Assembly (NCBI RefSeq): GCF_013401515.1
Contig: NZ_CP058532.1
Span: forward strand, 1-64,000
DNA length: 64,000 nucleotides
Origin: Halorarum halophilum
GTDB taxonomy: Archaea > Halobacteriota > Halobacteria > Halobacteriales > Haloferacaceae
Reading direction: 5' to 3'
The notes under the pieces were generated by a model. The model searched no databases. It saw only the letters and a program-made list of their open reading frames with translations, and was not told the origin of the DNA. Of the stretch, positions 45,034-59,106 are shown piece by piece; the first letter of the stretch is position 1; every line of letters starts with the position of its first letter. A program made the translations under genes and the position numbers.

Positions 45034-45162
45034 TGTGACCATTTGTGTTTTAGCGCCTGGTCATGTTAAGGGTTCCGATATGTTCGATAAGCTTAAGAGA
45101 AATAACCCAGCCCCGTCGCTGTGTGCGGAATGGTTATTATATACGATCGGGTATGGGAGAAC

Positions 45163-46057: not shown

Positions 46058-46089
46058 CATGTACGGACGCGTATGTACGTACGTACGCC
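46058..46089. repeat. TACG-rich tract, copy 4
   Basis: catgtacggacgcgtatgta followed by cgtacgtacgcc, 15-20 bp upstream of the first tRNA-cluster promoter. Confidence 0.6.
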
Positions 46090-46224: not shown

Positions 46225-46297
46225 GCCGGGGTAGCTTAACTGGGAAAGCACGGGACTGAAGATCTCGCGTTGCTGGTTCGAGTCCGGCCCCACGGCA
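46225..46297 (+). tRNA. tRNA-Phe(GAA), imperfect acceptor stem
   Basis: D, anticodon (loop CTGAAGA) and T arms are intact. The acceptor GCCGGGG pairs with CCACGGC only if one base (46289) is bulged and one G-A mismatch allowed. CCA not encoded. Confidence 0.7.
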
Positions 46298-46330
46298 TCC
46301 GAAACTTTCGCTGACGAGCAAGATCAATAC

Positions 46331-46417
46331 GGGCCCGTGGGAGAGTGGCCGATTCCAACAGTCTCAGGAACTGTGCCGTAGGGCTAAACATCGCTGGTTC
46401 GAATCCAGCCGGGTCCA
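46331..46417 (+). tRNA. tRNA-Leu(CAG)
   Basis: Class II. Acceptor GGGCCCG/CGGGTCC, anticodon stem ACAGT/ACTGT with loop CTCAGGA, long variable arm, T loop TTCGAAT. Confidence 0.88.
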
Positions 46418-46430
46418 TCCGGAGGTGAAC

Positions 46431-46532
46431 ATGACCGATCAGATCCGTCACGATCTCCAGTCTGTGTGGGCGAGGGGCCCACAAACTGTAGATGATGACA
46501 CGAAATTCAGTGATAATATCAGTCGGGATTAA
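46431..46532 (+). CDS. Small protein within tRNA cluster, 33 residues
   Basis: ATG preceded by a full Shine-Dalgarno GGAGGTGA (46421-46428). Sequence begins MTDQIRHDLQSVWARG. Unknown; the strong ribosome site is the main support. Confidence 0.5.
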   Translation: MTDQIRHDLQSVWARGPQTVDDDTKFSDNISRD

Positions 46533-46543
46533 GTAGTACGCAT

Positions 46544-46648
46544 ATGACGGCGCAACCGAGGGACGAAGGAACCAGTGATGCTGACTGGGCATCTGGGGAG
46601 GTGCTCTTCCACTGGTCCAGCGTCTCTCACCCCACTCTGGGAGGGTAA
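46544..46648 (+). CDS. Possible small protein, 34 residues
   Basis: ATG 46544 to TAA; acidic start (MTAQPRDEGTSDADW). No promoter or ribosome site of note. Confidence 0.35.
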   Translation: MTAQPRDEGTSDADWASGEVLFHWSSVSHPTLGG

Positions 46649-46725
46649 CTGCGCGGTCCCGCATACTACTCGACTCGACATGCCACCAAAAGCGTCGGCC
46701 ATGGACGCACACTGAAAGTAAAGAT

Positions 46726-46813
46726 GCCGTGACAAGGGGACCGGTGACCCTCACCGAGCTGCTACCTCGGCTCCGCTGTCATGCGATTTCCAGTTCGAAT
46801 CTGGATCACGGCG
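46726..46813 (+). tRNA. tRNA-Ser(GCT)
   Basis: Class II. Acceptor GCCGTGA/TCACGGC, anticodon stem CCGAG/CTCGG with loop CTGCTAC, T loop TTCGAAT. Confidence 0.88.
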
Positions 46814-46874
46814 TACGGCCCACACGGGTCGTCCGTAGGATGCGTGTCCTACGGGAAGCACGCACCACACGTAT

Positions 46875-46959
46875 GCCGAGGCACGGGGACAGGCGACCCT
46901 ACCGGTCTTGAAAACCGTCGTCCCGCAAGGGCTTGGGAGTTCGACTCTCTCCCTCGGCG
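46875..46959 (+). tRNA. tRNA-Ser(TGA)
   Basis: Class II. Acceptor GCCGAGG/CCTCGGC, anticodon loop CTTGAAA, variable arm, T loop TTCGACT. Confidence 0.87.
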
Positions 46960-46961
46960 CT

Positions 46962-47009
46962 GTCTCAAAACAGGCAACGGTTATATAAAACAGTTGCCGA
47001 AAATGAGAC
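46962..47009. promoter_or_regulatory. Two-part stem-loop with TATA box between Ser tRNAs
   Basis: GTCTCA...TGAGAC encloses GGCAAC...GTTGCC, whose loop holds GGTTATATAAAACA, a likely promoter for the next two tRNAs. Confidence 0.5.
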
Positions 47010-47014
47010 ATTTG

Positions 47015-47102
47015 GCCGTCGTTACCGTAGTCTGGCCAACGGACCTCGTTGGAGACGAGGAGGGCTTTCGGGTCTTCGCCGGTTCGAATCCGGCCGACGG
47101 CG
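47015..47102 (+). tRNA. tRNA-Ser(GGA)
   Basis: Class II. Acceptor GCCGTCG/CGACGGC, anticodon stem CCTCG/CGAGG with loop TTGGAGA, T loop TTCGAAT. Confidence 0.88.
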
Positions 47103-47105
47103 CTC

Positions 47106-47196
47106 ACCACCGTGGCGAAGTGGCTGAACGCGCCCGTCTTAAAATCGGGTATGCTCCGAGGGAGCTCGATCGCGGGTTCGAATCCCGCCGGTGGTA
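47106..47196 (+). tRNA. tRNA-Leu(TAA)
   Basis: Class II. Acceptor ACCACCG/CGGTGGT, anticodon loop CTTAAAA (last stem pair T-T), variable arm, T loop TTCGAAT. Only 3 bases from tRNA-Ser(GGA). Confidence 0.86.
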
Positions 47197-47530
47197 CTCT
47201 AACAGGAAAAGAATAGGCGTGAACCAGCGTGGGATTATAAATATGCAATTGTATCGACATAGTTATATCTCAACAAAGATAAATAGAAAATCAGCCACCG
47301 TGCAATGCGGCTGAAACAGGAGCGCACATCTCCCCAGAGTGGGATGCGAAACAGAAACCCAGCCTCCAGATTCGGCTGCTACTGGGTGCCCAGTGGCGTA
47401 CAAAGCCTCCCCACGGTTTTCGAAGTGGACGTTCGACGTTCGTGCTGGCATGAGTCTGAGCACGGGTCGTCCTCGAGGGATATGACAGATACAAGAAACA
47501 CTTAATATCGTATCATGTCTACTTTTAGAT
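47197..47530 (+). other. AT-rich intergenic region and promoter
   Basis: 334 bases without a gene or tRNA. The first 100 bases are markedly AT rich (gggattataaatatgcaatt onwards), the next 150 GC-normal and unassigned. Ends with a class II promoter AAGAAACACTTAATATC (47493-47508), 22 bases before ATG 47531. Confidence 0.5.
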
Positions 47531-47821
47531 ATGGCACCTCCCCAGGACGGCTACGTTCACGACAGCGGCGGCGTCTACCAGGGTCCAGACGGCGGTCGAT
47601 GGATGGACCGCGACGTCATCATCGCGTTGCAGGTAGAAGATGGAGACGACCCGATCCAGGCTGAGAAGGCACTCGACGAGCTCATCGCGAACGGGACGCT
47701 CCGAGAGGACGATTCCGGACAGTACGTGCAGATGGAGACGACGTTCGCGGCGTTCAAGAACACCGTCCAGCTCATGGGCGCGGCGAAGATCGACTCGATC
47801 AAGAACCGTCTCGCCCGCTAA
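47531..47821 (+). CDS. Unknown protein, winged-helix-like
   Basis: 96 residues, leaderless behind AGAAACACTTAATATC. RDVIIALQVEDGDDPIQAEKALDELIANGTLRED has the helix-helix-wing rhythm of a winged helix. Followed directly by the next gene (TAATG). Confidence 0.55.
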   Translation: MAPPQDGYVHDSGGVYQGPDGGRWMDRDVIIALQVEDGDDPIQAEKALDELIANGTLREDDSGQYVQMETTFAAFKNTVQLMGAAKIDSIKNRLAR

Positions 47822-48246
47822 TGAGCTTCTCCGATCTCCCGGACGCTGCGCGAGAGGAAATGATCGAAGAGATGGAGCGGACGGAGACCGGCGTCTTCTT
47901 CGGCCCGTTCGATCCGCCTGAGTATTGCGACTTCGAGTACGGTGGGATCGAGACGCTCTGTGGCGACGATGCGACGCACAAGCTCACGTTCGAGCTCGAC
48001 GATGTGACTGATGAACTCGTTCGGTGTGATGAACACGGCTTCCCCTGGGTCGTCCGGACCCGGCGAGAACAGCAGCTTGGCCACCCGCTCTGTCAGGTCT
48101 GTCAGCACCGGGAGTTCACGGGGTTCATCAGCCCGAACGACCCCGTCGGGACGGCGAAGATGCTGTACAAGGACGGCGAAGAGCGGGAAACGTACGTGTG
48201 CGAGGAGTGCGCTGACGAGTACGATTTGGACCTCGACCCGCTATGA
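47821..48246 (+). CDS. Unknown zinc-ribbon protein
   Basis: 141 residues. Cys pairs CQVC and CEEC about 40 residues apart near the C-terminus, plus earlier C and CDEHGF. Acidic. ATGA-coupled to the next gene. Confidence 0.6.
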   Translation: MSFSDLPDAAREEMIEEMERTETGVFFGPFDPPEYCDFEYGGIETLCGDDATHKLTFELDDVTDELVRCDEHGFPWVVRTRREQQLGHPLCQVCQHREFTGFISPNDPVGTAKMLYKDGEERETYVCEECADEYDLDLDPL

Positions 48247-48440
48247 GAGTCCGGATTCCGGATGATCCGGAGGAGGCGTACAAGAGGTACCGGGATGATC
48301 CGTTGTTTTGGGAGCTCGTGAACACGGTCGCTCAGTTGGAGGACGGCATCGAAGAGGTCGACATCCTCGAGGGAGTCCACGCCCGCGTGTACGACGTTCC
48401 CGATGAATTGCTCGGGATCAGCGAGAGACGTATCCCTTGA
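48243..48440 (+). CDS. Small protein, 65 residues
   Basis: Charged, helical (DPEEAYKRYRDDPLFWELVNT). Convergent with, and overlapping by 23 bases, the minus gene at 48418. Unknown. Confidence 0.55.
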   Translation: MRVRIPDDPEEAYKRYRDDPLFWELVNTVAQLEDGIEEVDILEGVHARVYDVPDELLGISERRIP

Positions 48441-48846
48441 ATCGGCCGCTGTAGCTGATGTCGCCCTGGTTCTGAAGATCCTGGAGGACGTCGTCGACGA
48501 TCGTCTCCAGGTCGGCGGTGATCACGTCGACGAGCTCGTCCCAGTCGAGGGAGTCGTTGTTTTCGAGCGCGGTCGTGATTCGTGCTTCGAGATCGAGCAC
48601 GTGGTCGTCAGTCGCCGGTTGCGCGGTGAGGTCGAGGTCGCGACGGCCAGCCTGGACCATACAGCGGATGAACTCGCTGCGGTTCATGTCGAGCCGATCG
48701 GCGTGGTCGACCCACTCGGTCTTCTGGTAGGCGGGGAGGTAGACTTTCATCGACTCGCGGGATTGGTCGACGTCGGGGTCGTCCCCCTGGGGGTGGGCGT
48801 CCATGGGGCGGTCGTCTCGGGCGGGCCTCTTAGCTGTTGGTGACAC
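48418..48846 (-). CDS. DUF5805 haloarchaeal protein
   Basis: 142 residues (start could also be the internal Met at 48804). KVYLPAYQKTEWVDHADRLDMNRSEFIRCMVQAGRRDLD and the ending QNQGDISYSGRFKGYVSR match the DUF5805 family, found next to integrases and in plasmids of haloarchaea. The first half is a ribbon-helix-helix-like DNA-binding unit. Marks the edge of the plasmid-like cassette. Confidence 0.75.
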   Translation of the reverse strand: MSPTAKRPARDDRPMDAHPQGDDPDVDQSRESMKVYLPAYQKTEWVDHADRLDMNRSEFIRCMVQAGRRDLDLTAQPATDDHVLDLEARITTALENNDSLDWDELVDVITADLETIVDDVLQDLQNQGDISYSGRFKGYVSR

Positions 48847-48876
48847 GAGTGAGTATTAGAGACATAAGCCGCGCTG

Positions 48877-49020
48877 ATGGCACCCGATCGGTGGAGTAAG
48901 TACCCCGGCGTAGTCTATCGAATCCGGCCGAACTACAGGCTCGTGTCACCCGGTCCCGGCAAAACTTGCGTGCGGACGTCGCTCGATTCGTGTCTGTCCC
49001 GAGGGAGATACACTGCATGA
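48877..49020 (+). CDS. Possible small basic protein, 47 residues
   Basis: ATG 48877 to TGA in the 235-base gap between two minus genes. Basic and Tyr/Arg rich (WSKYPGVVYRIRPNYRL), so unlike the neighbours. A weak TATA (TATTAG) lies 23 bases upstream. Confidence 0.35.
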   Translation: MAPDRWSKYPGVVYRIRPNYRLVSPGPGKTCVRTSLDSCLSRGRYTA

Positions 49021-49081
49021 CGCTATACGAAGTCTGACCCCCTGTAGGGGTGTCCTACCGTCGAATAGTGAGAAGGCCGCC

Positions 49082-49414
49082 TCAGAGCGTATCCGCCCGC
49101 TTGATGATCTTGTCGAGATCCCGGTCGTAGGTGTTCTTCCGCTCCCCGACGCCAATGCACCAGAGCGTATCGCCGTCTCGAACGAAGTACGAGCGTAAGT
49201 CACCGACTCGGCGGCGATACACGGTATGGGGGCCGTCAGTGGTCAGTGTCCCGAGGCTCTGGTTCAGATATCGGTTCCATGTGGTCAACTGTTCTCTGAG
49301 CTCGTCGACGTCGTCGAGAACGTCCTCTTTATCCTGGTCGGAGAATTTCGACGATGAAAGATCGGAGAACACGTACTCCGTGTGGAGGGTAACCTCAGAG
49401 ACAGTCAACGGCAT
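49082..49414 (-). CDS. RelE/ParE-like toxin
   Basis: 110 residues. The C-terminal 45 residues, VYRRRVGDLRSYFVRDGDTLWCIGVGERKNTYDRDL, have the RelE core (R-x-R-x-G-x-x-R ... I-x-V-G-x-R-K-x-x-Y). The preceding helices fit the family. RelE proteins cleave mRNA on the ribosome, but the catalytic residues were not checked. A 47-residue acidic gene 43 bases upstream is the likely antitoxin. Located beside the replication origin, as in plasmid stability modules. Confidence 0.7.
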   Translation of the reverse strand: MPLTVSEVTLHTEYVFSDLSSSKFSDQDKEDVLDDVDELREQLTTWNRYLNQSLGTLTTDGPHTVYRRRVGDLRSYFVRDGDTLWCIGVGERKNTYDRDLDKIIKRADTL

Positions 49415-49457
49415 ACAGTAGTCCGAGAAACAAAACGAGCCGACTTAAAACGTCCTG

Positions 49458-49601
49458 TTACAGGTCGAGAAGGTCGCGCATCTCGTCCGTCGAGGACGAG
49501 TCGGCGGATTCGAGATCGAGATCGTCGAGCCGGTCACTGAGACGGTCCCCGTTCCCCAGTTCGGGATCTTCGTTGAGCTCGACGTCGTGGTCTGCGGCCA
49601 T
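49458..49601 (-). CDS. Candidate antitoxin of RelE-like toxin
   Basis: 47 residues, very acidic (DDLDLESADSSSTDEMRDLL). Upstream of and in the same direction as the RelE-like gene. Lacks a visible DNA-binding domain, as in several haloarchaeal RelE partners. Function inferred from position. Confidence 0.5.
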   Translation of the reverse strand: MAADHDVELNEDPELGNGDRLSDRLDDLDLESADSSSTDEMRDLLDL

Positions 49602-49650
49602 GAGCGTGGGAACGTTACCTCACCGTAAAACTCTTTGGACCGTGAGAGAC

Positions 49651-49670
49651 ACCCCACCGTTTCAAGTGTT
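49651..49670 (+). repeat. ORB repeat 1
   Basis: ACCCCACCGTTTCAAGTGTT. Other same-direction copies: 49686-49710 (diverged), 49732-49753, 49782-49803, 49829-49850, 49900-49921. Confidence 0.85.
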
Positions 49671-49899
49671 ACAGACGGTGAAGGGACACCCCCCACTTTT
49701 CACGAGTGTTTTCAACAGACGGCTCCGGGAGACACCCCACTGTTTCAAGTGTTCTCGTAGCTCGATCAGCGGGCATTCCCCACACCCCAGTGTTTCAAGT
49801 GTTAGTCGTCAGCAGCGGATCACGAGACACACCCCACCATTTCAAGTGTTCATCGGAGTCGATCGGGCGGTGTGACGAGACCAGAACCTCGGGGGTCCC

Positions 49900-49921
49900 C
49901 CACCCCACTGTTTCAAGTGTT
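49900..49921 (+). repeat. ORB repeat 6
   Basis: Last copy before the unwinding region; contains CCCCACTGTTTCAAGTGTT. Confidence 0.85.
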
Positions 49922-50090
49922 ACACGGGGGTGGCGGTAGGCGGAACCCGCGTCCTCACGCGCTCTCCGACCAACATCCGAACACACCGCATTGAGTTTTC
50001 CCCACTGCGGGTTTGGTTTTAGAGTATGAGAGATAAAGGTTTCTACTTGGAATAGGTCTCCGTGGAGGGGGTCCCCCACGTTCGACCTGA

Positions 50091-50148
50091 AACACTTGAA
50101 ACAGTGGGGGGTGGGTGTCGGGACAGATGAAACACTTGAAGGGGGTGG
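50091..50148 (-). repeat. Two inverted ORB repeats
   Basis: AACACTTGAAACAGTGGGG (50091-50109) and a shorter AAACACTTGAAGGGGGTGG (50130-50148), opposite in direction to the first six. Confidence 0.82.
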
Positions 50149-50186
50149 TCCTCGGGTTTTATGGTCTCGGGTGTGGACGGGCCGCC

Positions 50187-51431
50187 ATGGAGCGCCTCAC
50201 GCCCGAAGACGAGATCTTCCAGAACGAAGACGCGCTCCGCGATCACTACCCCGACCGGATACTCGAGCGAGACGAGAAGTTGACCGAGTACCAGAACAAG
50301 TTCAAGGAGGTCGTTCGGAACAAGCGTCCTCGAAACGTGTTCGTGTACGGGCCGACTGGCGTCGGGAAGACGATTGGGACCAAAGCCGTTCTCCAGAACA
50401 TCCAGGACAGCATCGATGAGTTCGACTACGCTGACTCACGGTTCGAAGAGCCGAGTCTCCGGGCTGTCCACCTCGAGTGCAAGGACCTGAACACGTCCTA
50501 CCAGGTAGCCGCTCACCTCGTCAACCAGCTCCGACTGGGCACTGATCGCGACCAGATCAACACGACAGGCTACCCCGAGGGACGAATCTACCAGATGCTG
50601 TTTGACGAGCTCCAGAACGTCGAGGAGTCCCACGTGCTGATCGCGCTCGACGAGATCGACAACATCGGCGGCGACGACAACATCCTGTACAAGCTCCCCC
50701 GGTGTAACAACGACAACTCGGCGAACCACGTCGACCCCGATGACACGAAGGTCGGCGTGATCGGCGTCACGAACGACGGGACGTTCAAGGACACGCTCGA
50801 CCCACGGGCGAAGTCGACACTGTGTGACCGCGAGATCCACTTCCCGCCGTACAACGCAAACGAGCTCCAGACGATCATGCGGGACCGTGCACGGGTCGCG
50901 TTCCACGACGGCGTCCTCACCGACGACGTGATCCCACTCGCAGCCGCGCTCGCTGCACAACGGTCGGGATACGCGCGCACCGCACTCGATCTCCTGTACG
51001 AAGCGGCCGACCGAGCCCGTGACTCAGACGAGGGGATCATCGAGGCGCGTCACGTTCGTGAAGCAGAGGAGGGGATTCAGCAAGGAGCGATCGTGAAGGA
51101 GGTGAAGGGCCTCTCGTCCCAGGGAACGCTCGTGAGCTACGCGATGGTCAGGCTGGATGAAGAACACGAGCTCCCGGCGAAGTTAGACAAGGTGTACGCC
51201 TGGTACGAACGATTCGCAAAGCAGATCGACGCGGACACAGTGACGCCCAGGACGGTTCATACGACGCTGAACGACTTGATGATCAACGGCGTAGTTACCT
51301 CTCGCGAAGTGAACAAAGGCGTCAGCGGTGGGCGTCACTACGAGTACGAGCTGGGCTGTCCGAAAGAGCTCGTCATGGACGGGATGGAAGGCAACTCCCG
51401 TCTCTCGGATATCGACGATCGGCTCAGTTAG
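50187..51431 (+). CDS. Orc1/Cdc6 replication initiator
   Basis: 414 residues from ATG 50187, 27 bases after TATA GGGTTTTATGG; an upstream in-frame ATG at 50115 lies in the ORB repeats and is rejected. AAA+ motifs: Walker A GPTGVGKTIG (about 55-64), Walker B LIALDEIDNI (about 150-159), sensor 1 VIGVTNDG, sensor 2 RSGYARTALDLLYEAA. The C-terminal winged helix ends the protein (VTPRTVHTTLNDLMINGVVTSRE). Binds the ORBs upstream and opens the origin. Haloarchaeal type. Confidence 0.92.
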   Translation: MERLTPEDEIFQNEDALRDHYPDRILERDEKLTEYQNKFKEVVRNKRPRNVFVYGPTGVGKTIGTKAVLQNIQDSIDEFDYADSRFEEPSLRAVHLECKDLNTSYQVAAHLVNQLRLGTDRDQINTTGYPEGRIYQMLFDELQNVEESHVLIALDEIDNIGGDDNILYKLPRCNNDNSANHVDPDDTKVGVIGVTNDGTFKDTLDPRAKSTLCDREIHFPPYNANELQTIMRDRARVAFHDGVLTDDVIPLAAALAAQRSGYARTALDLLYEAADRARDSDEGIIEARHVREAEEGIQQGAIVKEVKGLSSQGTLVSYAMVRLDEEHELPAKLDKVYAWYERFAKQIDADTVTPRTVHTTLNDLMINGVVTSREVNKGVSGGRHYEYELGCPKELVMDGMEGNSRLSDIDDRLS

Positions 51432-51595
51432 ACGAGGGGAAGCGGTTCTTGGACGGGAGAGGATTCGAGTGGGTAGAGTCGGAGAAGATCCCCACAGCCA
51501 GGACACGTCAGTCGGAGACCAGTCGTTCCGTCGTCCGTGTCGGTCCATTCGGCTTCGTATCGTTCGAACTCGGCGTCGCAGGTGTTGCAGTTCAT
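51428..51595 (-). CDS. Small zinc-ribbon protein
   Basis: 55 residues, convergent with orc1 (4-base overlap) and starting inside the stop of the CopG-like gene. C-x2-C pairs CNTC and CPGC. Common as a tail gene of haloarchaeal par loci. Confidence 0.65.
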   Translation of the reverse strand: MNCNTCDAEFERYEAEWTDTDDGTTGLRLTCPGCGDLLRLYPLESSPVQEPLPLV

Positions 51596-51921
51596 GATTC
51601 GTATTCCTCCATGATGTACTCGTCCAGGTCAGGGTGGTCGAGACCGGCGCGTACCAGACCCTCGAGGAAGTGCTTGTGCTTTTCCACTTCGTCGTCACCA
51701 TCGAGCGTCCGCTTGGCGTTGTACCGTTTGAACGTCCGATCGAGGTCGCCCTGAAGTTGCTCACTCAGATACATCGGACATTGGCTCCGAGATCGAGTCG
51801 ACTCCTCTGAAGTGCCACCACCAGCGTCCGTACCGGTTTCACGCTCCGCCCCGTCGTCCTCTTCACGCCGATGGCGCTGCTTCATCATGCTGGCGAGCTC
51901 GTCGTCGTCTTCTTCAGGCAT
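51592..51921 (-). CDS. CopG-like partner of ParA
   Basis: 109 residues from ATG 51921. Acidic, low-complexity N-terminus; the C-terminal half, CPMYLSEQLQGDLDRTFKRYNAKR then EKHKHFLEGLVRAGLDHPDL, matches small proteins encoded after parA in haloarchaeal plasmids. Predicted ribbon-helix-helix centromere binder or ParA regulator. Overlaps parA by 8 bases. Confidence 0.7.
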   Translation of the reverse strand: MPEEDDDELASMMKQRHRREEDDGAERETGTDAGGGTSEESTRSRSQCPMYLSEQLQGDLDRTFKRYNAKRTLDGDDEVEKHKHFLEGLVRAGLDHPDLDEYIMEEYES

Positions 51922-52708
51922 GGTTCGTCTCCAGGTGGTCAGCGAGGCTCGCGTAGATCTCGCGAACTTCCGTCGCCTTCTTCTCGCGGTGATTATTGTC
52001 CGGGTCGTAGCCGAAGATCGACCGCTGCTGGTCGAACGCGCCTTCGATCGCGACAGTGTCCGGGACCTGGAAGACACGGTCTTCGCCCATGTTCTCGTTG
52101 AACCAGGCGATTCGCTCCTCGCTGATGCTGTTGCGAGAGGTTGCGTTGACGACGACCCCCGCGTAGTCGATCGGCCGACGGTACTCGTCGATGAGTCCAT
52201 CGACCTCTCGGCGCATCAGGTTCATCGAGAACGTCGCGATCGAGTCGGGACGAGTGACGAACAGGAGGTTCCCAGCGGCCAGCAGTGCGCCATCACAGAG
52301 TGGCCCGAGATTCGGCGGCGCGTCGATGAGCACGTAGTCGTAATCGTGCTCGATCTCATCGAGTGCGAGGCGGAGGCGTTCGTTACGCCGGTTCATCGTG
52401 TGCATGTCGTCCTCGAGCTCGAAGAACGACCCATGGGCCGGGAGGAGATCGTATTCCTCGTGCTCGACGATCACGTCGTTGATCTCGTCGAAGCGGTTGA
52501 CGTCACGCAGGATCTGTCCCATCGTATCTTCGCGCGAGCTCACGTAGTAATCGCGAAAGCCGAGTGTGATCGTCGGGAACCCTTGCGGGTCACTGTCGAC
52601 GAGCAGGACGTCGTTGGTGGCATCTGCGAGTGCGCCGGCGAGGTTGATCGTCGTCGTGGACTTCCCAACGCCCCCCTTCGCGTTCGCGAGTGCAAGTCTG
52701 AACGTCAC
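51914..52708 (-). CDS. ParA partition ATPase
   Basis: 264 residues with a GTG start at 52708. Deviant Walker A KGGVGKSTTT (about 10-19) with the signature lysine, DSDPQG (Walker A'), and Walker B VLIDAPPN. Typical of plasmid ParA/Soj. A perfect 8-bp inverted repeat (52716-52732) sits between promoter and start, a likely operator or parS. With the origin it implies maintenance as an episome. Confidence 0.9.
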   Translation of the reverse strand: MTFRLALANAKGGVGKSTTTINLAGALADATNDVLLVDSDPQGFPTITLGFRDYYVSSREDTMGQILRDVNRFDEINDVIVEHEEYDLLPAHGSFFELEDDMHTMNRRNERLRLALDEIEHDYDYVLIDAPPNLGPLCDGALLAAGNLLFVTRPDSIATFSMNLMRREVDGLIDEYRRPIDYAGVVVNATSRNSISEERIAWFNENMGEDRVFQVPDTVAIEGAFDQQRSIFGYDPDNNHREKKATEVREIYASLADHLETNHA

Positions 52709-52715
52709 TCATATC

Positions 52716-52732
52716 ACCCGTGTCACACGGGT
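52716..52732. promoter_or_regulatory. Inverted repeat ACCCGTGT-C-ACACGGGT
   Basis: Perfect 8-bp arms with one central base, 8 bases upstream of the parA start on its coding side. Confidence 0.65.
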
Positions 52733-52795
52733 CATCCGTGGGATATTAAACCTACGTCAGACACGCAGTCCACGGACCAGACAGGTCAGACCCCC

Positions 52796-52832
52796 TGTAC
52801 GTACGTACGTACGCGCACATATGTACGTACAG
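52796..52832. repeat. TACG-rich tract, copy 5
   Basis: Runs of TACG around cgcacatatg, 30 bp upstream of the tRNA cluster 2 promoter. Confidence 0.6.
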
Positions 52833-52882
52833 CTCCCGTCGTGCGATTGGGTGTCAGTCGCACGATAGCTTTAAGGTGAATG

Positions 52883-52904
52883 GACGTATTTATTCTGATA
52901 CGTC
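52883..52904. repeat. Inverted repeat GACGTAT-8-ATACGTC
   Basis: Perfect 7-bp arms, 8-base AT-rich spacer, just downstream of a promoter; operator-like. Confidence 0.55.
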
Positions 52905-52905
52905 A

Positions 52906-52995
52906 ATGTCACTGACTGCGGATACACCCGGCAATCCGCCCCTGGCGCGATGCTGGCACTACGGAGTGCCAGAACGCGTCAAAGCTCAACAGTGA
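52906..52995 (+). CDS. Possible 29-residue ORF
   Basis: ATG about 35 bases behind CTTTAAGG, stop 14 bases before tRNA-Asn. No recognisable features. Confidence 0.3.
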   Translation: MSLTADTPGNPPLARCWHYGVPERVKAQQ

Positions 52996-53009
52996 CAGCA
53001 CTCTTTCGT

Positions 53010-53083
53010 GCCGGGAAGTCCCCCTTGGTGGGGGTATCAGACTGTTAATCTGACCGTGGAAGGTTCGAATCCTTCTCCCGGCG
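53010..53083 (+). tRNA. tRNA-Asn(GTT)
   Basis: Acceptor GCCGGGA/TCCCGGC, anticodon stem TCAGA/TCTGA, loop CTGTTAA, T stem GAAGG/CCTTC. Confidence 0.9.
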
Positions 53084-53164
53084 CTCCAGAGTGGGCGCAT
53101 GTCAGAATACCAGAAACTATAATACCGTATCAGGTAAAGGATAAGACACAACAACATGGCAACA

Positions 53165-53238
53165 GGACTCGTGGTCCAGTCTGGCTACGACGGTCGCCTC
53201 CAAAGCGACATACGGGGGTTCGAATCCTTCCGAGTCCA
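53165..53238 (+). tRNA. tRNA-Trp(CCA)
   Basis: Acceptor GGACTCG/CGAGTCC, anticodon stem GTCGC/GCGAC, loop CTCCAAA. A separate promoter-like CCAGAAACTATAATACC lies at 53110. Confidence 0.9.
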
Positions 53239-53325
53239 CTTGGGCCGCCCGCGGGAGTGGGATAGGTCCAACGCACACCTGGGGAGGTGCTGACGCCCAC
53301 CCCTTCCCCGGTGGGAGTTGTGAGA

Positions 53326-53398
53326 TGCCGCGCGGTCCGCTGGGACGGACGCCGCCCTGACATGGCGGAGACGGGAGGTTCGACTCCTCCTGTGGCAA
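53326..53398 (+). tRNA. tRNA-Val(GAC)
   Basis: Acceptor TGCCGCG/TGTGGCA with G-T pairs, D stem GTCC/GGAC, anticodon stem CCGCC/GGCGG, loop CTGACAT. Confidence 0.87.
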
Positions 53399-53482
53399 TG
53401 AGGGATTCGTTCCCTCAGGTGAACCCGGTCGAGGTGCGATCTCGACCATCTACCCTCACGGCTCCGTTTGGCCACGGAGCCA
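53398..53482 (+). other. Three tandem hairpins between Val tRNAs
   Basis: TGAGGGA/TCCCTCA, GGTCGAG/CTCGACC and GGCTCCGT/ACGGAGCC stems follow one another with 5-7 base loops. All perfect. Confidence 0.65.
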
Positions 53483-53484
53483 TC

Positions 53485-53558
53485 TGGCGCGTAGGTCAGT
53501 CTGGTAGACCGCCTCGCTTACATCGAGGATGGCCGCGGTTCGAATCCGCGCGCGCCAA
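53485..53558 (+). tRNA. tRNA-Val(TAC)
   Basis: Acceptor TGGCGCG/CGCGCCA, anticodon stem CCTCG/CGAGG, loop CTTACAT. Confidence 0.9.
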
Positions 53559-53676
53559 CTCGGGCGCGAGCTCACCCCCGGTCCCGTGAGCTCACGACCA
53601 GTTAGGAAACGGTCGGGGAAGCGCCCGACAGAGAAATGGGACCCCGGTCCCCCTTCGGGGGATCGTTAGCAAGCAA

Positions 53677-53751
53677 GTGCCCGTAGTTCCAATCTGGTAG
53701 AACGGCTCCTTTGCAAGGAGAAGGCTCGGAGTTCGAATCTCCGCGGGTACA
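53677..53751 (+). tRNA. tRNA-Ala(TGC)
   Basis: Acceptor GTGCCCG/CGGGTAC, anticodon loop TTTGCAA, T stem CGGAG/CTCCG. Confidence 0.88.
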
Positions 53752-53839
53752 TCGGTCACGGTAAGGAAGCATACCCGGTCCGCCGGTGACGTCCTCTATC
53801 GGAAGTGCCCAGCGAGGGAAGCACGCAAGACACCCACGA

Positions 53840-53914
53840 GGGCCGGAGCCCAGTCTCGGACGACGGACAGAGCTCTTAACTCTGCAAGAGTGAGTTCAAA
53901 TCTCACCCGGCCCT
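53840..53914 (+). tRNA. tRNA-Lys(CTT)
   Basis: Acceptor GGGCCGG/CCGGCCC, anticodon stem CAGAG/CTCTG, loop CTCTTAA. Discriminator T. Confidence 0.88.
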
Positions 53915-54065
53915 CTCAGGGACATCCCGTTTAGACGCGGAGTCGACGGCTTGATCAGCCAATGTCGGCGAAGGCTCCAGGCGGACGACTGGAGTGAGAA
54001 TAGTCCCGGGCGGATATGCAGCATACCGCCTCATATGGCCCGTATCGTCCAGGGCAAGCTGCTAT

Positions 54066-54143
54066 GGGCCGAAGTTCGCGATTAGGATGCGAGACTGGAC
54101 TTTTAATCCAGACACATCGCGGGTTCGAATCCCGCTCGGCCCT
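54066..54143 (+). tRNA. tRNA-Lys(TTT)
   Basis: Acceptor GGGCCGA/TCGGCCC, anticodon stem CTGGA/TCCAG, loop CTTTTAA. Discriminator T. Confidence 0.88.
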
Positions 54144-54271
54144 CTGTGCCGTATCCGACGGCCAGACAAAGACGGGTCGCTACCGTCATCGGTGTCAGGA
54201 CTTCACCTGACGTTGTACCGTGTAGATACCATCACTGACATCGCACGAGGGGCTGAAAGATGCCTCCGTGT

Positions 54272-54345
54272 GGCTTTGTAGCTCAACTCGGGAGAGCGCG
54301 ATCCTCGTAAGATCGAGTGTGGGGGTTCGAGTCCCTCCGAAGCCT
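54272..54345 (+). tRNA. tRNA-Thr(CGT)
   Basis: Acceptor GGCTTTG/CGAAGCC, anticodon stem CGATC/GATCG, loop CTCGTAA. Confidence 0.88.
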
Positions 54346-54500
54346 TCCGCGGCCTGCGTCCTGAGCCGCACTGACTCGGTAGTGCCGAGCCACAAACCAG
54401 TATTGGGACGCGAACAGTCAACAGAACCCGTCGACGGTTTCGAGCGCCCCCGCGACATACCCTGACGAGGGGAGGAAGCACGCGGCGCTATACAAATCAG

Positions 54501-54573
54501 ACGAGAGTAAGTCTCAGTGGAAGAGCTGGGAGTACGAGACTCCTGAGTTCGGGTTCAAATCCCGGCTCTCGTC
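54501..54573 (+). tRNA. tRNA-like element, isotype unclear
   Basis: Acceptor ACGAGAG/CTCTCGT and T arm (loop TTCAAAT) are perfect. The best anticodon stem GGGAG/CTCCT leaves loop TACGAGA, with A rather than U at position 33; the triplet would be CGA, or ACG with a poorer stem. D stem is weak. Could be a decaying or unusual tRNA. Confidence 0.6.
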
Positions 54574-54644
54574 CTTGGGTGCTGGCGAGAAGTGACCCGT
54601 GTTCAGACTCATCGGTCGACCGGGTAGCCAGTTAACCCATTCAC

Positions 54645-54717
54645 CCGTTCAAGCTCACGTGGGAGTGAGACTCGCCTGTAGAGCGAGCCGTTCCAAGTTC
54701 GAATCCTGGTGAACGGA
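54645..54717 (+). tRNA. tRNA-Tyr(GTA)
   Basis: Acceptor CCGTTCA/TGAACGG, D stem CTCA/TGAG, anticodon stem CTCGC/GCGAG, loop CTGTAGA. T stem has one mismatch. Confidence 0.87.
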
Positions 54718-54936
54718 CTCGGGGTTCAACACCGGTAGTAGCCGGTTCCGTTGCCCCTTGGGTAGTGACCGTAGCCCTTCGCGAGGGACGTCAGCTCCGG
54801 ACTGGCGACCCGTCTGGAGCGTAAACGGTTCGAGGGTGGATGCCTCGTACAAACAACTTCCATCGTCTGACATCAGGATTCAGTTCCTGTCTGTCGACAT
54901 GCCGGGCGTCGGGCGGCCCGAGATCCACGCCCCCGA

Positions 54937-55008
54937 GCCGAGTTGGTGTAGTGGCTATCATCGTGGCTTGTCACGCCACGGACACGGGTTCGAGTCCCGT
55001 ACTCGGCG
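54937..55008 (+). tRNA. tRNA-Asp(GTC)
   Basis: Acceptor GCCGAGT/ACTCGGC, anticodon stem GTGGC/GCCAC, loop TTGTCAC. Confidence 0.9.
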
Positions 55009-55162
55009 CTTCCCGGACCAGCGAAACTGCTGGCCGGGCACGGCGGCCTGCTCGAGAGTCGTCGTGAACATCATGGGTGCGTCCAAGGCCGAGGCGTGCC
55101 ACGGCCATGGAGCCGATCGAGAACCGGACTGGGGCCCCGGATACCCAAAGGCCCTCACCTGT

Positions 55163-55238
55163 AGCGGGGTAGCATAGTCTGGCCCATTGCACCGCCCTCA
55201 TGAGGCGGACGTCGACGGTTCGAATCCGTCTCCCGCTA
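55163..55238 (+). tRNA. tRNA with CAT anticodon (Met or Ile2)
   Basis: Acceptor AGCGGGG/TCCCGCT, anticodon stem CCGCC/GGCGG, loop CTCATGA. A1-U72 is an initiator trait, but the GGG/CCC anticodon stem of initiators is absent. Confidence 0.85.
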
Positions 55239-55319
55239 TCGAGGCGGCCTGAAATCCCACGGCGCGGAGAAAGGTCATTGCCGTAATCCGCACGAATGCC
55301 GAGATGGTCGCCTCACCCT

Positions 55320-55395
55320 GCTCTCGGAGTCTCCGCTGGCGAGAGATGCGAGACTTTCAATCTCGAGGTCGAGGGTTCAATTCCCTTCGAGAGCA
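55320..55395 (+). tRNA. tRNA-Glu(TTC)
   Basis: Acceptor GCTCTCG/CGAGAGC, anticodon stem CGAGA/TCTCG, loop CTTTCAA. Confidence 0.9.
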
Positions 55396-55470
55396 TCACA
55401 CGTATGGCACGTGTCCCACCGGACACGCACGCAGTACGTGGAATGGTGTGTCCCACAGGGCACACGTATC

Positions 55471-55545
55471 GTACGGTTAGTGTAGTCTGGCTAACCACGC
55501 CTCGATGCCATCGAGGAGACACCGGTTCGAATCCGGTACCGTGCA
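55471..55545 (+). tRNA. tRNA-Gly(GCC)
   Basis: Acceptor GTACGGT/ACCGTGC, anticodon stem CCTCG/CGAGG, loop ATGCCAT. Confidence 0.88.
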
Positions 55546-55546
55546 T

Positions 55547-55639
55547 ATGGTCACCCGACCAGAACCGGATGTCTCGTACGACGAGCGCGTCCGGCGCCTA
55601 ATCGAGGAGCACCGGGAGTCGCTCGATCTCCTGGGTTAG
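55547..55639 (+). CDS. Possible small helical protein, 30 residues
   Basis: ATG two bases after tRNA-Gly, TAG at 55637. Amphipathic helix YDERVRRLIEEHRESLDLL with haloarchaeal-like composition. Confidence 0.4.
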   Translation: MVTRPEPDVSYDERVRRLIEEHRESLDLLG

Positions 55640-55676
55640 CCGGGTGCGGCTGGACGCCGCGCTCGGTCTACAACCC

Positions 55677-55982
55677 ATGACCGACTACAGACTCGACGAC
55701 GTGGTGGAAACCACGCGTATGATCGGACCGGAAGGCGAGTACGTGAAGGGCATCTGCAAGTCCTGTAGCACCCAGCGAAAAGTCACGCGCGACGAGTTCG
55801 TGATCGACGGCTGGCACCGGATCGTCGACGGCGGACGGGTCCCGCTGATCCCCCGAGACGTCGACCAGGACGTGCTCGAATACGTCGCCGTCATGCGGTC
55901 CTGGAACTGCTGCTACGAGGGAGAGGAACCGCTCGACGGACTCCCGGAGCAGCCCGACGTGAGCCAGATCGAGTTCGAGTAA
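55677..55982 (+). CDS. Unknown Cys-containing protein
   Basis: 101 residues from ATG 55677. CKSC near the N-terminus and SWNCCYEGEE near residue 80 form a possible zinc site. Strand-rich centre (RVPLIPRDVDQDVLEYVAVM). Embedded in tRNA cluster 2. No family recognised. Confidence 0.55.
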   Translation: MTDYRLDDVVETTRMIGPEGEYVKGICKSCSTQRKVTRDEFVIDGWHRIVDGGRVPLIPRDVDQDVLEYVAVMRSWNCCYEGEEPLDGLPEQPDVSQIEFE

Positions 55983-56001
55983 GGCTCACGACCACCGTTC
56001 A

Positions 56002-56072
56002 GCGTCAGTGGTCCAATGGTAAGATAGCGGCCTTCCAAGCCGTAGATCCCGGTTCGATTCCGGGCTGTCGCA
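56002..56072 (+). tRNA. tRNA-Gly(TCC)
   Basis: Acceptor GCGTCAG/CTGTCGC with one T-T, anticodon stem GCGGC/GCCGT, loop CTTCCAA, T stem CCCGG/CCGGG. Confidence 0.87.
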
Positions 56073-56199
56073 CTCGGTAGATTGGCTCTCTACCGTCACG
56101 CAAAAACGAGCAAGGGACCATCGTAGGTCTTAGCTTCGGACCACCCGCGTAATCCGGGAGAGGACGGAGACACCACTGTACAGCGGTGGTCCCGACCGA

Positions 56200-56272
56200 A
56201 GTCCCCTGGTGTAGTGGACAATCATAACGGCCTTTGGAGCCGTTGACGGCGGTTCGAATCCGCTGGGGACTA
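56200..56272 (+). tRNA. tRNA-Gln(TTG)
   Basis: Acceptor AGTCCCC/GGGGACT, anticodon stem ACGGC/GCCGT, loop CTTTGGA. Confidence 0.9.
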
Positions 56273-56326
56273 CTCGGGCATGCGATTAGTTGAAGTACCA
56301 CCGACGTGATATTTCAAGTAACGCAG

Positions 56327-56884
56327 ATGTCCACCATCTGGTCTGACGACGAGCTGGCTATGCTTCGGGAACAGTACCCGAAAGGATCGATCGACGATCT
56401 CGCCGCCGAGCTCGGTCGGACCAGGGAAGCGGTGATGAAGAAGGCGAACGCGATCGGTATCGCTCGCCACGAGGACGCTGGGATCATCGAGCGGATCGAT
56501 GTCGAGAACAGACCCTCGTTCCGCGACGACGCGTTCGCTCACTTCATCTCGGGCTTCGTCGCCGGTGAAGGGTCGTTCAACGTCTCGCTCAACGACGATG
56601 CGAGACCATCGTTCCGATTCTGCATCGGTCTCGACGCTGACGATGTTCTGATCCTCGAGGAGATCCACGAGTTCCTCGGCGTCGGGTCGGTGTGCCTCTC
56701 CACGCAGGGAGACGGCCGGAACGACCTGGCGCAGTACACCGTCCAAAGTGTCGCCGATCACGTCCTGGTGACGGTCCCGTTCTTCGACGAGTACGGGCTC
56801 CAGTCGACGTTGAAGCAGCGACAGTACGACGACTGGCGAGCGCGTCTGTTCGACCACTACGACGTCGAGCAGTACGTCGTATAG
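56327..56884 (+). CDS. LAGLIDADG homing endonuclease with N-terminal HTH
   Basis: 185 residues from ATG 56327. Residues 1-45 are a SANT/HTH-like unit (WSDDELAMLREQYPKGSIDDL, TREAVMKKANAIGI). HFISGFVAGEGSF (about 72-84) is the LAGLIDADG helix with catalytic E/D, followed by FRFCIGLDADDVLILEEIHEF and later QYTVQSVADHVLVTVPFFDEY, the usual one-motif fold that works as a dimer. Free-standing between tRNA-Gln and tRNA-Glu(CTC), its stop sharing a base with the latter. It may cut tRNA-linked sites and spread this locus. Confidence 0.85.
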   Translation: MSTIWSDDELAMLREQYPKGSIDDLAAELGRTREAVMKKANAIGIARHEDAGIIERIDVENRPSFRDDAFAHFISGFVAGEGSFNVSLNDDARPSFRFCIGLDADDVLILEEIHEFLGVGSVCLSTQGDGRNDLAQYTVQSVADHVLVTVPFFDEYGLQSTLKQRQYDDWRARLFDHYDVEQYVV

Positions 56885-56959
56885 GTTCTGGAGTCTCCGC
56901 TGGCGAGAGATGCCACGTTCTCAGCGTGGAGGTCGCGGGTTCGATTCCCGTCAGAACCA
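56884..56959 (+). tRNA. tRNA-Glu(CTC)
   Basis: Acceptor GGTTCTG/CAGAACC, anticodon stem CCACG/CGTGG, loop TTCTCAG. Its D arm is identical to that of tRNA-Glu(TTC). Confidence 0.9.
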
Positions 56960-57140
56960 CTCAGGGGCTGTCCGTGGCCCCGACCACTCGGCGACGAAAT
57001 CCCCGCCGACATCCGGGATGGACGGGTAACGCCCTGACTGAGACCACCGCGGTCGAGGAAAACACGCGACTGAGGTCGTCGGCCCCGAGAGTAAGAAACC
57101 GGCCGCCGGGTGCTCCACGGCGTGAGGATCACGGAGCAGC

Positions 57141-57216
57141 AGTCCCGCGGCGTCTGTTGGCGAGACGTGCCGCCCTCTGGAGGCGGAGATCGGGGGTTCG
57201 ATTCCCCTCGGGACAA
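57141..57216 (+). tRNA. tRNA-Gln(CTG)
   Basis: Acceptor AGTCCCG/CGGGACA (terminal A-A mismatch), D stem GTCT/AGAC, anticodon stem CCGCC/GGCGG, loop CTCTGGA. Confidence 0.85.
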
Positions 57217-57312
57217 TGCGGTTGGACCCCACCAGACGGCGGGCTGAGGGTCCCGGATGGGCATCGACGTGCACCCAGACGTTAGAGCACACAGCCGCAC
57301 CCGCCACCTCGT

Positions 57313-57386
57313 GTCCGGGATCGTCTAACTGGAGAAGATTCGACACTGTGACTGTCGAGATGCGGGTTCGATCCCCACTCCCGGAC
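57313..57386 (+). tRNA. tRNA-His(GTG)
   Basis: Extra G at -1 (57313) opposite C73 (57386), the His identity pair. Acceptor TCCGGGA/TCCCGGA, anticodon stem CGACA/TGTCG, loop CTGTGAC. Confidence 0.9.
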
Positions 57387-57390
57387 CTTG

Positions 57391-57480
57391 GGGACAGACC
57401 AGCGCAAGCCGGACCGACAGGGTCCCAGTCGGTGACCCCCGGCACGCGGGGTTCTGCGAGTTCAAGTCTCGCCTGTCCCA
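57391..57480 (+). tRNA. tRNA-like element with odd core
   Basis: Acceptor GGGACAG/CTGTCCC and T arm GCGAG/CTCGC (loop TTCAAGT) are perfect, but the middle is about 17 bases too long and holds two alternative stems (ACCGAC/GTCGGT and ACCCC/GGGGT) with no loop having U33. Could be a class II derivative, an intron-bearing gene or a decayed tRNA. Confidence 0.4.
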
Positions 57481-57517
57481 CTGCGACCCGCTGGGTAGGG
57501 GTACTGAGCGGGTCCGA

Positions 57518-57591
57518 GTGCTCGTAGTTCCAACTGGAAGAACGCTCCCGTGGCACGGGAGAGGCTGCGTGTTCGAATCACGCCGAGTACA
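57518..57591 (+). tRNA. tRNA-Ala(GGC)
   Basis: Acceptor GTGCTCG/CGAGTAC, anticodon stem CTCCC/GGGAG, loop GTGGCAC. Confidence 0.88.
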
Positions 57592-57694
57592 TGGGGGGTG
57601 ACGGATGGCCCTCGTCACCACATGAATAGCCGTCGACGCCTTGCGCTGGCGCTGGCGGTAAGTGGTATTCCCCACCGAGGTAGAGCTTGGCCGC

Positions 57695-57772
57695 TGGGTG
57701 GTCGCGTAGCCTGGTTTATCGCGCCCGCTTTGGGAGCGGGAAATGTCGTCGGTTCGAATCCGACCCACCCAA
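57695..57772 (+). tRNA. tRNA-Pro(TGG)
   Basis: Acceptor TGGGTGG/CCACCCA, anticodon stem CCCGC/GCGGG, loop TTTGGGA. Touches the phosphatase start. Confidence 0.89.
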
Positions 57773-57774
57773 TG

Positions 57775-58203
57775 ATGGACAGACTAACAGACAGCCTCTG
57801 GATTGGCGACATCCAAGACGCCAGAACGAGGCCACTGGCTGACCTTGGTATCGATCACGTCGTGACGGTGTGTCAGAACCGTGTCGACGACAACCTCCCG
57901 GACTCGATGGCGTACACGCACATCGACATCGACGACGGTCCCCACGACTACGAGGAGTTCAAGCGCGGTGTCGACACAGTGGTCGAGGCGATCGACAACG
58001 GCGAGACCGTCTTCGTCCACTGTCACGCCGGCATGTCGAGATCGACCTGTACGTGCACGGCCGCGATCGCCGTCCGGCGCGGGCTGAAGTGGACGGAAGC
58101 AGTCCAGTTCATGCACGACCGCTACCACCGGATGATGCCAAGCGTCGAGCTCGCTCGAAGCGGCGGTCGATACGTCCTCGACCACATGGCCGCGACGCGG
58201 TGA
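57775..58203 (+). CDS. Dual-specificity phosphatase
   Basis: 142 residues from ATG 57775 (ATG 57772 overlaps the last base of tRNA-Pro). LWIGDIQDARTRPLADLGIDHVVTVC is the DSP N-terminal pattern; HIDIDDGPHD carries the general acid Asp; the P-loop is VFVHCHAGMSRSTCT (H-C-x5-R-S, all key residues present). May dephosphorylate proteins or RNA 5' ends (some DSPs are RNA phosphatases), which would fit its place in a tRNA cluster. Confidence 0.85.
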   Translation: MDRLTDSLWIGDIQDARTRPLADLGIDHVVTVCQNRVDDNLPDSMAYTHIDIDDGPHDYEEFKRGVDTVVEAIDNGETVFVHCHAGMSRSTCTCTAAIAVRRGLKWTEAVQFMHDRYHRMMPSVELARSGGRYVLDHMAATR

Positions 58204-58331
58204 TACATGATACGTGATACACGGCTCACGCGTAGGATGCGTGTGACACGGGACGCCTGTAGCACCCAGAGTATCACGTGTGAGACGGGCAACGTGGCGC
58301 TTATCCATCACCCGCGGGTGACCCAGACATA

Positions 58332-58571
58332 ATGGCACCGCAGTCAACGGAGATCTTCGACGAGATGGTCGAGCTCCTCTATCAGCAGCGCGAGTTCACG
58401 ATCGGCGACTTCACCGTCGACCCGGGCAAGTACGAGTACGTCAAGACCACGCTCAACGAGCTCGAGGAGCTCGGCTGGGTCGACCGGCTCGATCCCGGCC
58501 ACCCCGATCCGTCGTGGGGGCCCGGTGAGAAAGCGAAGCTCCTGATGGACCTCCCCGACGAGGACTCCTGA
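58332..58571 (+). CDS. Small winged-helix-like protein
   Basis: 79 residues, leaderless about 30 bases behind GCGCTTATCC. Helix-helix-wing rhythm (IFDEMVELLYQQREFTIGDF, YVKTTLNELEELGWVDRL). Probable regulator. Confidence 0.6.
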   Translation: MAPQSTEIFDEMVELLYQQREFTIGDFTVDPGKYEYVKTTLNELEELGWVDRLDPGHPDPSWGPGEKAKLLMDLPDEDS

Positions 58572-58598
58572 TCAGGTGCCACCACCAGCGGAAGTATC

Positions 58599-58671
58599 GC
58601 TCCTGTAGTTCAGCGGCCAGAGCATCCGCCTTCTAAGCGGAGAGTCGTCGGTTCGAATCCGACCAGGAGTA
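58599..58671 (+). tRNA. tRNA-Arg(TCT)
   Basis: Acceptor GCTCCTG/CAGGAGT, anticodon stem TCCGC/GCGGA, loop CTTCTAA. Confidence 0.9.
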
Positions 58672-58674
58672 TGT

Positions 58675-58750
58675 GCCCTTGTAGCTCAGCCCGAACAGAG
58701 CATCGGCCTTCGAAGCCGAGTTGTCGGCGGTTTGAATCCGTCCAGGGGCG
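58675..58750 (+). tRNA. tRNA-Arg(TCG)
   Basis: Acceptor GCCCTTG/CAGGGGC, anticodon stem TCGGC/GCCGA, loop CTTCGAA, T loop TTTGAAT. Confidence 0.88.
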
Positions 58751-58794
58751 TGAAGTACCAGAACTGTGATATACGTGCTATACGTAGGATACGT

Positions 58795-58938
58795 ATGAAG
58801 TGTAACATGTGTGGCGGGCCCATGGTACGAAAACGCGGACGGGTCGGCATCGAGGGGACGCGGCGATACTTCTTCCGCTGCTTCATGTGCGGGAAGATCC
58901 ACGTCCCCCGGGACGAGAACGATCTCACACCACTGTAG
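58795..58938 (+). CDS. Small zinc-ribbon protein, 47 residues
   Basis: ATG 58795, 28 bases behind GTGATATACG (leaderless). CNMC and CFMC pairs around a basic hairpin (GGPMVRKRGRVGIEGTRRYFF), a nucleic-acid-binding zinc ribbon. Sits between tRNA-Arg and tRNA-Ile. Confidence 0.7.
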   Translation: MKCNMCGGPMVRKRGRVGIEGTRRYFFRCFMCGKIHVPRDENDLTPL

Positions 58939-58958
58939 ACGTTGCTCGTCCACTCTGC

Positions 58959-59030
58959 ACGCTCGTAGCTCACTGGTAGAGCACTCCGCTGATAACGGAG
59001 GGGAAGCTGGTTCAATTCCAGTCGGGCGTA
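58959..59030 (+). tRNA. tRNA-Ile(GAT)
   Basis: Acceptor ACGCTCG/CGGGCGT, anticodon stem CTCCG/CGGAG, loop CTGATAA. Confidence 0.89.
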
Positions 59031-59034
59031 CTGT

Positions 59035-59106
59035 GTCCTGGTGGCCGAGTGACTACGCACCGCGCAGCAGACGCGGAGGACCCCGGTTTGAATCCGGGCC
59101 AGGGCT
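59035..59106 (+). tRNA. tRNA-Cys(GCA) with A33
   Basis: Acceptor GTCCTGG/CCAGGGC, anticodon stem CCGCG/CGCGG, loop CAGCAGA: position 33 is A instead of U. T stem CCCGG/CCGGG. Confidence 0.82.

Follow-up and report, generated by a model that had tools for sequence, protein, structure and literature searches.

A probable haloarchaeal phage-plasmid with an Orc1/ORB and partition cassette at the recombinase locus of its viral relatives

The contig C4 is probably a haloarchaeal phage-plasmid, whose circular genome would be kept by an Orc1/ORB origin and a partition (par) module lying at the locus where relatives of the virus carry a recombinase. Most probably the virus is maintained in plasmid form and does not depend on integration. 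Judged by homology, its maintenance cassette is a composite of an orc1-ORB unit, a parA-partner operon, a toxin-antitoxin (TA) pair with a DUF5805 protein, and a viral zinc ribbon. A phage-plasmid lifestyle was one of two explanations offered by an earlier, sequence-only reading of this DNA, and it is well supported: C4 is a contig of its own, 149 kb long, apparently circular and without an integrase, and both its origin-initiator and its par operon have plasmid homologues and keep their cis-sites. Phage-plasmids as a kind, and the exchange of integration for partition functions, are known already. A 149-kb HGTV-1-like archaeal virus with Orc1/ORB and ParA at a recombinase locus is, as far as found in the literature searched, new, although priority is uncertain.

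The replicon and its virus

The window, that is, the whole stretch of 64,000 nt that was analysed, comprises bases 1-64,000 of C4 (G000:C4, 148,857 bp), which belongs to a haloarchaeal genome of four contigs and 4.28 Mb in all, the chromosome (C1) being 3.68 Mb. C4 has 226 called genes and contains neither a terminal repeat nor Ns. A 988-aa ORF is continuous in frame over the contig ends (147,157 to 1,266), a frame match that on its own is expected by chance one time in three, and tail genes flank the join, with the tape measure (136 kb) and baseplate hub (140 kb) on one side and the baseplate wedge (5.7 kb) on the other. Because of this ORF and of the continuity of the tail module, which carries weight, C4 was read as an arbitrarily opened circle, and it appears to be a separate circular replicon within the host genome. 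Every other replicon of this genome likewise has an Orc1 homologue. The genome's matches to Phage_integrase (PF00589) all lie on C1, with none on C4, and the Recombinase family of large serine recombinases (PF07508) has no match in the whole genome.

Virus genes make up most of the 149 kb. The virion and packaging genes include TerL, tail sheath, tape measure and baseplate genes, together with a putative portal that has a weak phrog match (E 4e-4) and a presumed capsid. The replication and nucleotide genes encode a family B DNA polymerase (PolB), an archaeo-eukaryotic primase, a DNA ligase and a ribonucleotide reductase (RnR). As a whole, the virus genes form an apparently complete set, with open reading frames and a collinear order. 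Of the 226 called genes, about 23 find a match in HGTV-1, with amino-acid identities of roughly 25-53% and little similarity in DNA. By these matches C4 is a distant HGTV-1 relative outside any described species, the kinship being likely at the level of the order and not of the family (Halomagnusviridae). No near relative was found in the phage collection, but three IMG/VR contigs (G001-G003) encode a TerL 83-85% identical to that of C4. Searches of 391 genomes of the class, of GTDB contigs and of PLSDB returned no close TerL match, and only one host genome carries C4.

TerL (L004:16685-18316) is nearer to the terminases of Streptomyces phage BRock and its like (30%) than to HGTV-1 TerL (25%). 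A protein matching the mycobacteriophage L5 gp82 family (Pfam 6e-37) is encoded at 26498-26884 on the minus strand, and a 974-aa protein at 21109-24033 is a homologue of HGTV-1 gp166 (28%) and matches HATPase_c weakly (E 0.01).

Origin, partition operon and accessory genes of the cassette

The DUF5805 protein, the RelE-like ORF with its acidic neighbour, the ORB array, orc1, the zinc ribbon, the small ORF beside parA, parA itself and the palindrome had all been placed in the cassette by the sequence-only reading, and all were confirmed in position. The cassette contains, from left to right:

48418..48846, minus strand: DUF5805 protein (Pfam PF19121, 1e-18) with a weak RHH-like match (RHH_1, 0.048)
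49082..49414, minus strand: RelE-like toxin of the toxin-antitoxin pair (phrog_1213 RelE-like, weak, E 0.034)
49458..49601, minus strand: 47-aa acidic antitoxin, with a homologue directly preceding that of the toxin in L058-L062 (E 2e-8 to 6e-14)
49652..50109, no strand: predicted replication origin, an ORB-type array with direct ORBs at 49652, 49735, 49785, 49832 and 49903 and an inverted one at 50091
50187..51431, plus strand: Orc1/Cdc6 initiator, 414 aa (Pfam Cdc6_lid 6e-20, Cdc6_C 1e-14)
51428..51595, minus strand: zinc-ribbon protein, a virus backbone gene with a homologue at the same locus in the relatives L032 and L033
51592..51921, minus strand: small ParA partner with a presumed ParB-like role, 8-nt overlap with parA
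51914..52708, minus strand: ParA partition ATPase (AAA_31, PF13614, 2e-34)
52716..52732, no strand: palindrome ACCCGTGTCACACGGGT, candidate parS/operator, sole exact copy in C4, just before parA
52746..52765, minus strand: parA promoter box CGTGTCTGACGTAGGTTTA (in three plasmids CGTGTCTGACGTAG and, after a single mismatch, TTTA)

Within 0.46 kb the 19-bp ORB unit (<=2 mismatches) is repeated five times in direct and once in inverted orientation, the origin also containing an A/T-rich stretch at about 49998-50055. Elsewhere in the 148.9 kb of C4 there are zero copies at <=4 mismatches, and about 0.002 would be expected by chance under a uniform-base model. As in haloarchaeal replicons of the Orc1/ORB type, orc1 adjoins both direct and inverted ORBs. 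C4 Orc1 is 63% identical to a protein of a Halorubrum saccharovorum contig. The initiators of pKBTZ03_58, a plasmid of Halobacterium, and of pR1SE share 61.7% and about 60.5% identity with it, respectively, and in the next PLSDB plasmids identity falls to about 45%. The likeness of pKBTZ03_58 and pR1SE to C4 extends from Orc1 (60-62%) to the ORB unit and its layout (direct array, A/T-rich gap, inverted copies beside orc1). However, they are plasmids of about 50-59 kb, and no relative of the C4 TerL was found in PLSDB; pR1SE spreads in vesicles (PMC10818511). A tblastn search of C4 Orc1 against phages gave no match, which excludes only close relatives, as ChaoS9 has a 24%-identical Orc1.

The partition operon resembles those of five haloarchaeal megaplasmids (from Salinirubellus, Salinigranum, Haloplanus, Salarchaeum and Halobaculum), to whose ParA proteins C4 ParA is 59-60% identical. 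Each of the five parA genes is overlapped at its 3' end by a small gene for an acidic protein, which is a homologue of the C4 protein encoded at 51592-51921 (E 1e-19 to 1e-29). This small ORF, for which a single-sequence structure model was uninformative, had been described as CopG-like; it matches no CopG family and is instead the conserved partner of parA. The palindrome, ACCCGT-N5-ACGGGT, recurs upstream of parA with exact half-sites and spacing in the Salinirubellus and Salinigranum plasmids and as degenerate copies in the Haloplanus plasmid. Similarly, the promoter box CGTGTCTGACGTAG-N-TTTA is common to the Salinirubellus and Salinigranum plasmids and partly to that of Haloplanus, so that promoter and palindrome together link C4 only to these three. 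The megaplasmids differ from C4 in being plasmids of 135-272 kb and in having longer upstream arrays of par-like repeats. The right border of the module falls between the promoter box (52746..52765) and position 52797. Since orc1-ORB and parA-partner match different plasmids, two sub-modules from two different plasmid backgrounds are indicated. C4 combines replication and partition genes that have plasmid homologues with virion and packaging genes, as is expected of a phage-plasmid.

The remaining pieces are of other kinds. The toxin has homologues (45-57%) in other haloarchaeal genomes, and its structure model, of low confidence, has a RelE-like order of elements. Toxin and antitoxin recur as a pair, antitoxin first, in five other haloarchaeal genomes, the arrangement of a two-gene operon. 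The earlier view that every piece of the cassette is typical of megaplasmids holds for orc1-ORB and parA-partner but not for the RelE-like ORF and the zinc ribbon, neither of which has a PLSDB match, nor for the DUF5805 protein, which has two PLSDB homologues (42-45%). On these searches the TA pair and DUF5805 are not plasmid-typical, and it is uncertain that the DUF5805 protein belongs to the maintenance module. The zinc ribbon was rejected as a part of the plasmid module, being present in the viral relatives. As to the age of the cassette, the comparison proposed with the flanks revealed no contrast either in GC content (59.6% vs 61.1%) or in codon use (z -0.8 to +0.5), and recent insertion, as a matter of composition, was rejected.

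The locus in viral relatives and the tRNA groups

Two of the related contigs, G002 and G003, cover the locus, and there a tyrosine recombinase takes the place of orc1, the ORBs and parA. In these relatives the tyrosine recombinase gene (+) is followed by the zinc ribbon (-), then by the viral palindromic element and by tRNA-Asn with the remainder of the right tRNA array. C4 has ORB-orc1 on the plus strand, next the zinc ribbon and partner-parA, both on the minus strand, and after them the viral palindromic element and tRNA-Asn. Right flank and zinc ribbon are hence collinear between C4 and two relatives with an integrase-family recombinase, as an exchange of int for par would leave them. The elements bordering the cassette are:

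46225..47197, plus strand: left tRNA group, 6 genes
52797..52834, no strand: viral palindromic element ahead of the right tRNA array, with GTACGTAC half-sites and conserved at this place in relatives
53010..59106, plus strand: right tRNA group, 25 genes; in relatives too the group begins at tRNA-Asn

The relatives' recombinase matches PF00589 (2e-15) and phrog_1 (integrase, 1e-28), and the motif stretches that we take to hold the active-site residues are present in it. At 1e-5 it has no match among phages or plasmids. Presumably it serves integration, although it could instead be an invertase or resolvase, a role argued for the recombinase of HCTV-5 (PMC8651126). In G003, a 212-aa coiled-coil/winged-helix ORF (L033:160-798) overlaps the start of the recombinase gene and may regulate it.

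Searches of G001-G003 with Orc1 and ParA gave no match, and the stretches of the relatives' sequence examined contain no ORBs. G002 and G003 are, however, fragments of ~89 kb that begin at or near the recombinase, so that their left flank and an estimated 70 kb, roughly, are unseen; orc1 or parA could lie in this portion. Queries for the left flank (g60 and g63, the latter including an alignment with HGTV-1) matched only HGTV-1 and one distant virus.

The cassette had been thought to split the tRNA array, which on C4 totals 31 genes. The GTACGTAC element at 46075 precedes the left tRNA group by about 150 bp and that at 52797 the right group by about 200 bp. As each group has a palindromic element of its own, and as relatives start the right group in the same way without the cassette, the groups look like separate transcription units. 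The cassette would thus seem to sit at the boundary of two tRNA units and not to cut one array, which has other interruptions as well: the region 46225-59106 holds ORFs for a LAGLIDADG endonuclease (56327-56884) and a homologue of the HGTV-1 dual-specificity phosphatase (57772-58203). The element has half-sites about 10 bp apart and is found in ~10 copies in C4, mostly intergenic (5249, 36728, 46075, 52797, 72357, 79645, 84693, 87397, 100624 and 107687). The one at 100624 lies before TerL, as does, by position, a similar element in the relatives L019/L020, and in relatives the position of the element is conserved. It has the look of an operator or promoter element used throughout the virus.

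The proposed insertion of a plasmid module stands in part: orc1-ORB and parA-partner are plasmid-derived and stand where close relatives have a recombinase gene. Nothing indicates that the event was recent, and neither the viral zinc ribbon nor the TA and DUF5805 genes fit a module of plasmid origin.

Mode of persistence and comparison with known systems

In the carrier state, a circular 149-kb genome would be replicated from 49.65-50.11 kb. The viral Orc1 would bind the ORB array, open the adjacent A/T-rich stretch and recruit host MCM; ParA and its small partner would segregate the genome via the ACCCGTNNNNNACGGGT site, acting as operator and/or centromere, and the RelE-type TA pair would penalise genome loss. 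The virus group would then swap its persistence mode at one locus, between a tyrosine recombinase and a replication-partition module. Stable episomal inheritance, origin firing and partition activity are predicted for C4 from the protein families concerned. An integrase function of the recombinase, a direction of the exchange and virion production by C4 are points that we infer.

C4 could instead represent a lytic or chronic virus infecting the sequenced culture, its orc1/ORB used for lytic replication and its parA and TA genes being host-derived accessories without a role in inheritance. This is unlikely. A circularly permuted virion genome would likewise assemble as a circle, PolB, primase and ligase are encoded by the virus itself, and Halomagnusviridae are among the eight families without proviruses found (Liu et al., 2021; PMC8651126). 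However, parA, partner, promoter and palindrome are retained as one plasmid-type unit, and in the relatives, which have the ligase and a portion of PolB, no orc1 was detected. The integrase-family gene at the relatives' locus argues in the same direction and renders doubtful the earlier description of the virus as lytic-type. A different role for Orc1, mainly in regulating the lysis-lysogeny decision and not as replication initiator, has a precedent in the Orc1/Cdc6 homologue of the haloarchaeal virus SNJ2, which reportedly controls the viral life cycle (Chen et al., 2023, as cited in PMC10544981), but is improbable for a gene that retains its own ORB array in the layout of a plasmid origin. 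It would be more surprising still if C4 were mainly a plasmid with captured viral genes that no longer produced virions. A circular replicon that carries genes for replication, partition and TA would suit such a plasmid; the apparently intact, largely viral gene content and the fact that the close relatives are IMG/VR viral contigs would not.

The phage-plasmid reading has its closest parallel in cluster A mycobacteriophages, in about 20% of which parABS replaces the integration cassette at a collinear position (PMC7157519). In RedRock and Miko a partition/replication cassette occupies the position that the integrase cassette has in close relatives, and the prophage is extrachromosomal (PMC7157519), which is the state that its sequence suggests for C4. 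C4 differs from them in having an archaeal host and virus, Orc1/ORB and not a RepA or RNA-based origin, and a par system of the haloarchaeal megaplasmid type. It is about as likely as not that a giant tailed archaeal virus lineage alternates between chromosomal integration and a partitioned episome, by swapping a tyrosine recombinase and Orc1-ORB/ParA at one locus as an independently evolved counterpart of the int/parABS swap.

Among tailed haloviruses, phiH1 and phiCh1 (Vertoviridae) have circular plasmids as proviruses and carry parA and repH at the lysogeny region (PMC6471424). They share with C4 the overlap of parA with a small gene and a PIN-domain gene nearby, and their ParA is 35-36% identical to that of C4. 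However, they are 58 kb in size, replicate by RepH and not Orc1/ORB, have an unrelated backbone and carry int2 in the region as well. ChaoS9 (Vertoviridae) is a tailed halovirus with parA and orc1, in addition to repH (PMC6471424), but its orc1 lies about 8 kb from parA, its toxin is of the VapC family, and it also has int2. HGTV-1 (Halomagnusviridae), the nearest isolate, is like C4 a tailed halovirus of large size that carries an extensive tRNA array, but it has no annotated orc1, parA or integrase, and no provirus of it is reported.

The presence of an HGTV-1 relative as a resident replicon of its host suggests that large tRNA-rich haloviruses can be passively carried, and the comparison of the locus offers a testable archaeal case of lifestyle switching through module exchange. 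The compact Orc1/ORB and par unit could also be tried as a shuttle-vector backbone. A PadR-family regulator encoded 3.4 kb to the left of the cassette (44743-45042, minus strand) is a candidate lifestyle regulator, and the phiH1 lysogeny region likewise has a PadR-like gene.
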